From positions 1 to 64,000 of the forward strand of contig CADCIP010000012.1 of the NCBI GenBank assembly GCA_902801485.1: a stretch of DNA of 64,000 nt, given 5' to 3'. The position numbers were made by a program, and so were the translations under genes. Below are positions 44,961-49,400 of the stretch, in pieces; position 1 is the stretch's first letter; each line of letters begins with the position of its first letter. The notes beneath the pieces were generated by a model. That model was not told the DNA's origin and made no database searches. It saw nothing but the letters and a program-made list of their open reading frames with translations. The DNA is from an uncultured Bacteroidales bacterium (GTDB lineage Bacteria > Bacteroidota > Bacteroidia > Bacteroidales > Bacteroidaceae).

Positions 44961-45587
44961 TTATTTCTGGTTCTGTAATTGAATCAGTACTCCGGGAACT
45001 ACAAGACCGATAACTGCCACGGCTGCCATCACATAAAGTTGTTCGTGACCAGGGAAATGCAAAGCACAGAAGAAGCCGCCCAAGCCAGCGATGAGGCCAC
45101 AAACCTGAATGATTCGGTTACGGATGATGAGCCCTGTGATGGTCGTTCCCATACCGAAACACAGGGAAATAACGCTCGTAATACAACCAAAAGCATACAC
45201 TTTGGGCATAATCAATTCTAAAGGCAGGATTCCGTTGCCGATGAAGCAAAACATAAAGCCGATTCCTCCGCAGAATATACCGAATGTAGTCCAAACATAA
45301 CTGATGGACTTGCCGACGAATGTCGTTGGAACGGTTTCGTTCTTCTTGTCAATCATCCAGTTGCCCACATAGCCAACCAACCACATGACTGCCCATAGAG
45401 CATTCCATGCAGGTCCGCCGTGATTTTTCCACAGGTAGGCAATGATGAATGAAAATATGACAACACAAACACCCCACCATATCATCGGCAATGCAGAATT
45501 ACGGGTGATCGTGCGCTGACTGCGTTCAATTGACTCGCGAATAATTTCCAGACTGCGCTCAGCAGTCAAGTTGCTGTTTTCTTCCAT
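44961..45587 (-). CDS. Conserved membrane protein paired with a winged-helix regulator
   Basis: A 208-residue protein with a charged N-terminal helix (RSLEIIRESIERSQRTITRN) and about six membrane helices. No catalytic motif is seen and I do not recognise a named family. It is co-transcribed with the winged-helix gene. Its promoter lies about 140 bp upstream, giving an unusually long leader. Confidence 0.8.
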   Translation of the reverse strand: MEENSNLTAERSLEIIRESIERSQRTITRNSALPMIWWGVCVVIFSFIIAYLWKNHGGPAWNALWAVMWLVGYVGNWMIDKKNETVPTTFVGKSISYVWTTFGIFCGGIGFMFCFIGNGILPLELIMPKVYAFGCITSVISLCFGMGTTITGLIIRNRIIQVCGLIAGLGGFFCALHFPGHEQLYVMAAVAVIGLVVPGVLIQLQNQK

Positions 45588-45754: not shown

Positions 45755-45906
45755 TTATTTTGTAGATTATTTTCTGCATATTACATTTTTTAACATTCGA
45801 AAGCATTTAGAAGCCTTGTCTGCCAAGACAGAAAAAAGACAATCCCAACCCGACAAAAAGATTTTACTAAGGGAAAGAAAGAAGTGTAACACGGGCAATA
45901 AAACTA

Positions 45907-45986
45907 TTTTCAAGGCTTGATAATATATTTTCAAGGCTTGGTTATTTATTTTCAAAGCTTGGTTATAAATTTTCAAGCCTTGAAAA
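45907..45986. repeat. Four-unit repeat with exact 21-bp period
   Basis: TTTTCAAGGCTTG occurs at 45907, 45928 and (with one change, TTTTCAAAGCTTG) 45949; at 45970 the variant TTTTCAAGCCTTGAAAA occurs. Starts are exactly 21 bp apart, two turns of DNA, so sites face the same side. Read on the minus strand the array encodes a heptapeptide repeat (NQALKI-type) but only from a TTG. Confidence 0.8.
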
Positions 45987-46095
45987 TAATTCTTACACGG
46001 CTATTAGCATATTATATTATTGGCATCAGAATGTTTTCAGACAGTTTATATGGTTATTCTGCAATTTAGTTGAAATGTGGGATATTTAAAGTTAT

Positions 46096-46250
46096 TGTCT
46101 TTGTTTTTCGGTTCTGTTGCTCAAGCCGTAAGGCTGTATTCGGTTTATGAAACAGTGAAGGCAAGCTTAATTTGGATTCGATGATTCACAAACTGAATAC
46201 GAATGGGTGAAAACCATGAGCAACAGAAACGGGTTTTATGGGTTTTCTTT
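46096..46250 (+). ncRNA. Candidate structured RNA upstream of purL
   Basis: Helices can be drawn by hand. P1 pairs TTCTGTTGCTCA (46112-46123) with TGAGCAACAGAA (46217-46228), 12 of 12. Directly after comes hairpin AGCC-GTAA-GGCT (46124-46135), with a GNRA loop. Directly after that, P2 pairs GTATTCGGTTT (46136-46146) with AAACTGAATAC (46190-46200), 11 pairs with one G-U. P3 pairs GTGAA (46155-46159) with TTCAC (46185-46189). A 3-bp hairpin TGG/CCA (46204-46216) abuts P1. A -7-like TGTCTTTG (46096-46103) precedes it, and a U-rich tail follows (46235-46256). No known class is recognised. Confidence 0.5.
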
Positions 46251-46347
46251 TATTTTGGCAACATTTCAACGAAATTGACGAAGACCCACTTATACCGGTA
46301 ATTATGTTAATACAGAAAATTTTATTCAAACATAGTGGGTGAACCCG

Positions 46348-46378
46348 TTGGTTACCTCATTATTTTTTTGTACCTTTG
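46348..46378 (+). promoter_or_regulatory. purL promoter
   Basis: TTG (46348-46350), 20 bp, TACCTTTG (46371-46378). The leader to ATG 46409 is about 25 nt. Confidence 0.75.
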
Positions 46379-46408
46379 TCGCAAAAATAAAAAAACGTAT
46401 TTGAAGAG

Positions 46409-49400
46409 ATGGCAATTACATTCTTTAAGACACCACAGGAGAGCATCATCGCTACTGCCTGTGACCACAAATTCACAAGCGAAGATATAGAAAAACTTTG
46501 CTGGCTCTACGACGGAGCTACTGTACTTGACGGAGAGACCCTGAGCGGATTCTTCATCGGTCCACGTAGGGAAATGATCACTCCCTGGAGCACCAATGCC
46601 GTGGAGATTACCCAGAATATGGCAGTCAAGGGCATTAGCCGTATCGAGGAATACTATCCCGTAGCCGACGAGAAGGCTGAATACGACCCAATGCTGCAAC
46701 GCATGTACAAGGGCCTCGACCAGGAGATCTTTACCATCAACATGAAGCCTGCTGCCATCCAGCACATCGAGAATCTGGAGGAGTACAACGAGCAGGAGGG
46801 TCTGGCACTCTCGCCAGAAGAGATTGAGTACCTGCACGATGTGGAGAAGCAGTTGGACCGCAAACTTACAGACAGCGAGGTGTTCGGCTTCGCACAGATC
46901 AACAGTGAGCATTGCCGCCACAAGATTTTCGGCGGCACCTTCATCATCGACGGCGAAGAGAAGGAGAGCAGCCTCTTCAAGATGATTAAGAAGACTACGC
47001 AGGAGAATCCCCATAAGATAATCTCTGCCTATAAAGATAATGTAGCATTTGCACAGGGTCCCGTTGTGGAGCAGTTTGCCCCGCAGGACCACAGCACGAG
47101 CGACTATTTCGTTATCCGCGACATAGAGAGTGTTATCAGCATCAAGGCTGAGACACATAACTTCCCCACAACGGTAGAGCCTTTCAACGGCGCCTCTACA
47201 GGTACAGGCGGTGAGATCCGCGACCGTATGGGCGGTGGTGTAGGTTCCTGGCCTATAGCTGGTACTGCCGTTTATATGACCAGCTACCCCCGTACTCAGG
47301 AGGAACGTGACTGGGAGAAGATTCTGCCCGTTCGTGATTGGCTGTACCAGACACCCGAGCAGATTCTTATCAAGGCATCCAACGGTGCCAGCGACTTCGG
47401 CAACAAGTTCGGCCAGCCTCTGATCTGCGGATCTGTGCTGACTTTCGAGCATCAGGAAAAGGACGAGAAATACGCCTACGACAAGGTTATCATGCTGGCC
47501 GGCGGTGTGGGTTACGGTACCAAGCGCGACTGCCTGAAGGGTACTCCCCAGAAGGGTAACAAGGTGGTTGTCGTAGGTGGTGATAACTACCGTATCGGTC
47601 TGGGCGGCGGCTCTGTATCATCTGTTGAGACAGGCCGTTACAGCAGCGGCATCGAGCTGAATGCCGTTCAGCGTGCCAATCCTGAGATGCAGAAACGTGC
47701 CTACAACCTTATCCGCTCCCTTTGCGAGGAGAAAGTGAATCCCGTTGTCAGCATCCACGACCACGGAAGTGCCGGACACGTAAACTGCCTGTCGGAGTTG
47801 GTTGAGGAATGCGGCGGTCACATTGATATGACCAAACTGCCCATTGGCGACCCCACCCTATCGGCAAAGGAAATTATTGCCAACGAGAGTCAGGAACGTA
47901 TGGGACTGCTTATCGACGAGAAGCACATCGACCATGTACGTCAGATTGCCGAGCGTGAACGCGCTCCGCTGTATGTAGTGGGTGAGACCACAGGCGATGC
48001 ACACTTCAGCTTCGAGCAGGGCGACGGTGTCCGTCCCTTCGACCTGGAGGTAAGCCAGATGTTCGGTCACTCTCCCAAGACCATCATGCGCGACAATACC
48101 GTAGAGCGTAAATACGAGAATGTAGAGTATGACAACTCTAAACTCTCAACTCTAAACTCTCAACTTGAAAAGGTTCTGCAGCTGGAGGCTGTTGCCTGCA
48201 AGGACTGGCTGACCAACAAGGTGGACCGCTCCGTAACAGGTAAGGTGGCACGCCAGCAATGTCAGGGCGAGTTGCAGTTGCCGCTGAGCGACTGCGGTGT
48301 GGTTGCCCTCGACTATCGTGGAGAGAAGGGTATTGCTACAGCACTGGGTCATGCACCTCAGGCAGCCCTGGCAGACCCCGCAGCAGGTTCCGTACTCTCT
48401 GTTGCCGAGTCTCTGACAAATATTGTTTGGGCTCCCCTGGAGGAAGGGCTGGACAGCGTAAGCCTGAGTGCCAACTGGATGTGGCCCTGTCGTGCCCAGG
48501 AGGGTGAGGATGCCCGTCTCTATACTGCCGTCAAGGCTCTCTCCGATTTCTGCTGCGAGTTGCAGATTAACGTTCCCACAGGTAAGGACTCGCTGAGTAT
48601 GACACAGAAGTACCCCAACGGCGAGAAGATTATCTCTCCGGGTACCGTCATCGTAACCAGCGGCGGACAGGTAAGCGACATCAAGAAGGTTGTTTCTCCT
48701 GTTGTTCAGAACGTACCTTCTACACTTTACCATATCGACTTCTCTTTCGATGAGCTCCGTCTGGGCGGTTCTGCCTTTGCTCAGGTTCACAACAAGGTAG
48801 GCAGCGATGTTCCTACCGTTAAGAACAGCGAGTATTTCCGCGATTGCTTCAATGCCATCCAGACCCTGATTCAGAAGGGCCTCATTCTGGCTGGTCACGA
48901 CATCAGCGCCGGTGGTCTTATCACTACCCTGCTGGAGATGACCTTCGCCAACACCAAGGGCGGTTTGAACATCAATCTGGACAAGATAAAGACCGACGAC
49001 CTGACAAAGATTCTCTTTGCCGAGAACCCCGGTGTTGTTATCCAGGTTGCTAACGGCAACCGTACAGAGGTAAAGAAGTTCCTGGAGGACGAAGGCATAG
49101 GCTACATTAATATAGGGGAGCCAGCCGAAGGCCGCACCCTTGCTATCCAGAAGAACGGACAGACATTCGACTTCGACATCGATGCCCTGCGCGATGTCTG
49201 GTACAAGAGCAGCTTCCTGCTGGATCAGAAGCAGAGCTTCCACGGCAAGGCTGCCGAGCGTTACCAGAACTACAAGCAGCAGCCTCTGCAGTGGAATATT
49301 CTTTCCAACTTTACAGGCAAGCTGAGCCAGTTCAGCCTGAACCCCGACCGTCGCGAGAAGAGCGGTCTGCGCGCTGCTATTATCCGCGAAAAGGGAACAA

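Follow-up and report, generated by a model that had tools for sequence, protein, structure and literature searches.

The window (the whole stretch of DNA analysed here, the first 64,000 nucleotides of contig CADCIP010000012.1 in assembly GCA_902801485.1, from an uncultured Bacteroidales bacterium of the family Bacteroidaceae) contains a gene-free stretch upstream of purL, with only doubtful ORFs between the gene ORFs that end at 45587 and start at 46409. Here the plus strand folds into a hairpin with a four-way junction (46112..46228). Its closing stem P1 has 12 bp, made up of a 5' arm at 46112..46123 and a 3' arm at 46217..46228, and P3 is a long arm with internal loops (46136..46200) that starts with 11 bp, including one G-U, and continues in shorter stems further in; both were assigned from the fold and the alignment of copies. 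P2 (46124..46135) is a hairpin in which 46124-46127 pair with 46132-46135 around a GTAA loop, seen likewise in fold and alignment. P4, at about 46204..46216, is assigned from the family model and the alignment; the model has a GAA loop there, and the window copy is mismatched. P1, the P2 hairpin and P3 follow one another with zero unpaired bases between them. The original prediction had drawn these paired segments, their contiguity on the 5' side and the gene-free setting from the letters alone, and sequence and fold confirm it on each point. Two T-rich motifs accompany the hairpin on the plus strand: a 5' foot GTTTTTC (46103..46109), frequent in the family according to an alignment of 24 copies, and an outer foot GGGTTTTNNNGGTTTT outside P1 (46231..46250), located by a pattern search with a reversed control. 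The folding energy is -52.2 kcal/mol on the plus strand (z -5.03) and -44.4 kcal/mol on the minus strand (z -7.32), and on neither strand did any of 200 shuffled sequences fold as well; the window copy, taken alone, has the more extreme z-score on the minus strand.

As had been supposed, the structure belongs to no class known to Rfam: a search of the window gave nothing at gathering score, and 15 related loci yielded a single tRNA and nothing else. At a permissive threshold the region 45900-46420 drew 19 matches, among them drum RNA with 14.2 bits against a cut-off of 43, which we dismissed as chance. At 45905-45994 lies an AT-rich array whose units resemble TTTTCAAGGCTTG and include an inverted copy; in Rfam it, too, gives microRNA matches by chance. 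Arrays of this kind occur upstream of purL in the related genomes G119, G159 and G123 as well.

The hairpin is part of an inserted element (46051..46288) that ends 120 bp upstream of purL. Its length of 238 bp follows from the imperfect 27-nt inverted repeats that bound the insert, the left one at 46051..46077 (plus strand, 3 mismatches in the pattern search) and the right one at 46262..46288 (minus strand, 1 mismatch); the pattern of this repeat has 10 matches in the element's own genome and none in the reversed control. The start region of purL was located in 129 of the 139 genomes of the genus, and 11 of the upstream regions were compared by eye, one of which (G007) was misplaced. By eye, G119 and G159 have the same flanks at purL, uninterrupted and without the element; the purL gene of G119 is 97% identical to that of the window. 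Comparison of the sequence with the empty site also reveals TTATA on both sides of the insert, at 46046..46050 and at 46290..46294, the latter one base outside the right inverted repeat, which suggests that a target duplication is possible. None is evident by eye in the 470-bp copies described below.

A position in front of purL might point to a conserved regulatory RNA of that gene, the more so as genome G047 also has a related hairpin upstream of purL. We give this reading practically no credence, and as a general role it is refuted. The hairpin stands at two of the 129 purL loci (counted from covariance-model matches in the genus against the purL coordinates), and by eye the one in G047 has a different position and a different neighbour gene, the same site being free of a hairpin in G045; the other copies lie beside other genes. 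The structure is not tied to purL, since it is present at so few purL loci and its site is empty in two relatives.

Copies, pairs and outer repeats

The genome to which the window belongs (3.6 Mb, 85 contigs) has two further close copies of the hairpin and a fourth, more distant one; the outer foot occurs 21 times in it, a few times without a hairpin, and not at all in the reversed control. A covariance model built from five copies matched in 12 of the 139 genomes of the genus, in varied gene neighbourhoods. With a stricter form of the foot we obtained 91 matches in 25 of these 139 genomes (reversed control, 7 in 5 genomes), and 92 matches across the family, in 33 of its 399 genomes (reversed control, 18 in 15 genomes); clearly above chance are the genomes with several foot matches, in the genera labelled g1, g52, g54, g59 and g70. 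A similar hairpin was recognised by eye in a locus of another genus (L260). The core pattern found 14 stretches in the GTDB genome collection, eight of them chance matches as judged by eye and six already-known copies; these six come from five Bacteroidaceae and one member of the Bacteroidales, from rumen or reticulum where a source is stated. The search of viral contigs, plasmids and phages gave no match. The folded sequence is one end of a small jumping element dispersed among rumen Bacteroidaceae. A mobile palindrome had been named as the alternative to a small RNA, and the further genomic copies and the empty purL site in two relatives bear it out; of the many copies with target duplications that were thought to mark such an element, the copies were found, and a duplication is suggested by the TTATA at purL.

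Complete elements consist of two divergent hairpins of about 125 nt each, mostly with 300-380 bp between the outer feet. Among the 104 strict feet for which 600 nt or more of inward sequence was available, 59 have a foot of opposite orientation at 150-600 nt (G140C31b, below the threshold, being excluded), and 38 of these 59 lie at 300-379 nt; convergent and same-direction neighbours are rare (2 and 7 of 161, respectively). The own genome has complete pairs on C27, C51 and C67, 450-470 bp long and bounded by repeats like those in the window, where a single hairpin, the right-hand one, is present. Because the folded strand of each end runs outward, the two folded strands are opposite DNA strands, an arrangement that suits either like recognition of both ends or two outward transcripts.

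Some loci show other arrangements. At about 4714-4855 of L106 (G000:C24) the inverted repeats and the T-rich foot occur without a hairpin, likely a deletion derivative. In L002 and L004 (G000:C41 and C1) a complete and a truncated copy have in common a longer repeat, which lies downstream of the hairpin; the own genome therefore has further interspersed repeat families. We also considered that two copies of like orientation (in G119 and G104) might carry a larger mobile element between them, and rejected this because the enclosed genes have, by eye, no common theme.

The outer repeats raise the question of what moves the element. Two of the three marks of a MITE that were tested were found, namely terminal inverted repeats and an empty site in relatives, and like a MITE the window element has no ORF of its own. 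It could simply be a MITE that belongs to an ISL3-like insertion sequence, with the hairpins as passengers, and with the gene described below, which lies between the hairpins of some longer relatives, as accidental cargo. The 27-nt repeats stand at the edges of the window insertion, and at contig ends of G127, G019, G044 and others they lie next to a C-terminus that resembles a transposase; a remnant matches PF01610 weakly, with E 0.0092 and 16.2 bits, below the cut-off of 23. We nevertheless consider a plain MITE unlikely. By eye, many hairpins bear other outer ends, the ends of the insertion sequence itself have no hairpin within the reach of the contig (often less than 120 nt), and what sets the element apart from a MITE is the conserved, strand-specific junction hairpin inside, which passengers would hardly retain across such divergent sequences.

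In these genomes many contigs end 22-115 nt from the start of a 27-nt repeat, a sign of a multi-copy insertion sequence that collapsed in assembly, and it is several of these ends that read as a transposase C-terminus. At 1159-1566 of L119 (G159:C10) lies the C-terminal portion of a TnpB-like protein, which overlaps an element with a hairpin pair at that element's left inverted repeat; the element thus seems to have inserted into a tnpB gene or next to one.

Conservation, strand and nature of the fold

Across 23 aligned copies, 22 of them distinct, 90.4% of the cells hold a standard pair and two-sided changes occur at 23 of the 46 pairs; in this alignment, which was fitted to the structure, covariation amounts to 0.268, against 0.133 after shuffling (500 shuffles, all lower than the alignment) and no more than 0.082 with slid partners. 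An unguided alignment of 24 copies (A5) gave 26 pairs in RNAalifold, mostly in P1, P2 and P4, 16 of them with two-sided changes. Homologues in which paired bases change together were the evidence proposed for a real structure, and both alignments supply it. The element is therefore structured and mobile at once, given its copies and empty site on the one hand and its conserved fold with compensatory changes on the other; both the insertion and the folding are well supported.

The size and topology of the hairpin are likewise kept. A P1 closing 110-140 nt was found for 73 of 93 distinct outer-foot instances, compared with 79 of 1500 positions drawn at random from these loci. The RNA lowest-energy fold of these 73 hairpins is a three-branched multiloop in 56 cases, plain in 14, and has two or four branches in 3; a strict four-way junction, with gaps of at most 2 nt, forms in 47 of the 73, against 11 of 1460 when the interior is shuffled. 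Other genera added 32 of 45 further instances, bringing the total to 105, and 75 representatives with an 8-mer overlap below 25% were taken; among these (gaps of at most 3 nt allowed) the strict junction is reached by 52 with RNA energies and by 61 with DNA energies. The folded shape, in short, outlives the sequence.

One strand is the folded one. The sense strand, which the foot defines independently of the fold, is the more stable in 74 of the 75 representatives, where about half would be expected of a palindrome without strand preference; since many representatives are variants of a few types, this is not equal to 75 independent trials. When the P1 arms are removed, the sense strand still folds better in 46 of 47 hairpins of the first set, with both energy sets. 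Because the sense strand prevails in this way, we take it that one strand is folded and selected.

Whether this strand acts as RNA or as DNA is a closer question. In an RNA element the hairpins would be transcribed outward, the stem with its T-rich foot serving as a terminator or protecting end or as a protein-binding small RNA. Folding that is specific to one strand fits such an element well, and so does the GGGTTTT that directly follows P1. G-U pairs occupy 56 cells and A-C 12, in an alignment that was itself fitted to the folded strand, and the tip of P3 is CTTG or CTCG in 31 of 52 hairpins; CTTG is a stable loop in RNA. A conserved promoter directly in front of the hairpins, however, is not seen across the family. 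TAnnTTTG is the -7 motif of Bacteroidetes, and the promoter-like TGTCTTTG that had been noted upstream of P1 is indeed present in the window, but within the 30-40 nt upstream TAnnTTTG occurs in none of the 75 representatives, 2.9 being expected by shuffling, and the looser TnnnTTTG in 16 of 75 against 18.4 expected. The motif is thus no commoner in front of the family than chance, and a separate small RNA with its own promoter, as originally favoured, is unlikely. Other points against an RNA are the absence of any Rfam match, in the window or in the 15 related loci (the tRNA apart), and the scarcity of GNRA loops, of which there are 3 in P2 and 1 in P4. GNA triloops, by contrast, account for 28 of 52 P2 and 22 of 52 P4 loops (raw counts, with no shuffled control), and PMC4686876 describes DNA mini-hairpins with GNA or GNNA loops on G-C pairs as extraordinarily stable; as an argument for DNA the loops are indirect. 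On balance we lean, by a modest degree, towards DNA as the folded form, and an RNA element appears to us rather unlikely as the explanation of the whole.

The GxxExxY gene between the hairpins

In genome G376 the ORF between two divergent hairpins encodes a GxxExxY protein (TIGR04256, PF13366), a member of the PD-(D/E)XK superfamily. The gene of L266/L300 scores 110.3 bits against TIGR04256 (cut-off 35) and 111.5 bits against PF13366. The 18 hairpin-bearing genomes gave 34 GxxExxY matches, all over cut-off, in 15 genomes, and loci were obtained for 30 of the 34; among the four without a locus, G269:C1:19503 has a strict foot beside it. Eight of the proteins form one clade with support 100/99 in a tree that does not include L277, and all eight clade genes lie between hairpins (L288, L296, L297, L298, L300, L301, L302 and L303). 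Folds were computed for 15 of their 16 flanking hairpins, 13 showing the junction and 2 lacking it, and the remaining one, the right hairpin of L298, is cut by the contig end; the hairpins of L297 have variant feet. The automatic scan overlooked the hairpins on both sides of L297 and L298, one side each of L301 and L302 (the second) and the left side of L303, all of which were recognised by eye. An automatic scan of the 22 other GxxExxY loci found none of them enclosed: four have a nearby hairpin pair that does not include the gene, and 18 have none. As these 22 were judged by the automatic scan alone, which may miss some enclosures, the Fisher value of 1.7e-7 is generous. Accidental cargo of a MITE would hardly be a single gene clade enclosed in eight loci; what accords with a MITE here is L298, where the 27-nt repeat of the window lies outside the left hairpin of an enclosed locus.

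The clade occurs in 7 of the 18 hairpin-bearing genomes; 11, the own genome among them, are without it among the matches. In the own genome (assembly 85% complete) the two GxxExxY genes both fall outside the clade, and no A7 match was obtained at E 1e-25. Enclosed genes are well over the cut-off of the GxxExxY family and yet form a clade separate from the rest of it. E74, D114, E124 and K126 are invariant in the eight clade proteins and are likely the catalytic set, the last three making up the D...ExK pattern. A search of the PDB by sequence with the enclosed protein gave one meaningless match (E 0.29) and no useful solved relative. The family name turned up in two papers only in a full-text literature search from which subscription journals are mostly absent; one of these, PMC8934634, mentions it in passing, and the search turned up no report of binding or cutting by a GxxExxY protein.

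Beyond the family, 393 genomes were sampled from the order; 21 of them match the clade at E 1e-25, and G702 alone has a close match (140 bits, the next having 110). The G702 gene (L334, from another family) is bounded, by eye, by inverted GTTTTG-rich ends with small hairpins, in which an automatic search for large palindromes picked up nothing; L334 may be a remote version of the element described here. In L288 an extra T-rich hairpin (about 1190-1335) separates the left hairpin from the GxxExxY gene, and the element is followed by a second hairpin pair (about 2094-2451), which indicates nested or tandem insertions. One other candidate partner, the four-helix-bundle protein of 23S intervening sequences (TIGR02436), had 83 matches in the 18 genomes and was rejected, a hairpin being present in 1 of the 30 loci read.

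Known systems and proposed mechanism

In its anatomy the element is most like the REPINs with their RAYT. Both are short mobile pairs of palindromes with many non-autonomous copies and a presumed nuclease partner (for REPINs and RAYT, or TnpA-REP, as mobile palindromes, see the accounts in PMC3116915 and PMC8266576). The palindromes of a REPIN pair in inverted orientation, which the divergent partners of 59 of the 104 ends resemble, the window copy itself being single. The differences are equally plain: REPs are given in PMC3733652 as 20-40 bp long with GTAG or CGTC feet, whereas the present hairpins are four-way junctions of about 125 nt with feet that by inspection are GTTTTTC and GGGTTTT, and the enclosed protein, assigned to PD-(D/E)XK, belongs to another fold class.

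Structured ends are shared with the IS200/IS605 family, whose ends fold on one strand, unlike the present ones, which fold on opposite strands, each outward. Recognition of subterminal secondary structures at the ends by the IS200/IS605 transposase is described in PMC6006769. ERIC and BOX are intergenic imperfect palindromes of about this size, but without divergent pairs of junctions, and we know of no gene partner for them. Bacteroidetes also have palindromic candidates for structured RNAs of 80-132 bp (PMC8040213); these may overlap with our element.

The reading that we find fairly probable takes the window copy for the right-hand end of a small REPIN-like element, non-autonomous, whose ends fold into junctions that a nuclease recognises. 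The folded ends are probably recognised as DNA, by the element's own nuclease. According to this scheme, a complete element would be a divergent pair of hairpins, each forming a four-way junction on the outward strand, and the window copy would have retained one of the two and have been inserted as a unit bounded by the 27-nt inverted repeats. The short pairs would be satellites of the longer relatives, which have the GxxExxY PD-(D/E)XK protein encoded between the hairpins. The presumed nuclease would recognise the folded ends by shape and not by sequence, much as a junction-resolving enzyme does, and recognition of shape would be the step under selection in the movement or maintenance of the element; a free sequence combined with a fixed size and topology is what such recognition would leave. 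In the lineage of the window, transposition proper may depend on the outer repeats, which an ISL3-like insertion sequence has as well; since they stand at the edges of the insert, the transposase of that sequence may have carried out its most recent move.

We infer that the protein is a cutting enzyme with these ends as its substrate, that single-stranded DNA and not RNA takes up the fold, and that this drives movement. Taken further, the elements could represent a novel class, in which single-stranded four-way-junction ends are cut by a self-encoded GxxExxY nuclease along a resolvase route, distinct from DDE, HUH and recombinase chemistry; this we put forward tentatively, as a possibility that is more doubtful than the REPIN-like reading itself. 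Our literature searches found no earlier description of such elements.

If the enclosed protein is the mover, the element would be categorically new, and if it acts on the junctions, this would be a transposition chemistry for which we know of no counterpart. The folded ends provide the first concrete candidate substrate for one clade of the GxxExxY family. They also amount to a natural collection of four-way junctions that keep their shape over divergent sequence, with which selection for the shape of DNA may be separated from selection for RNA.
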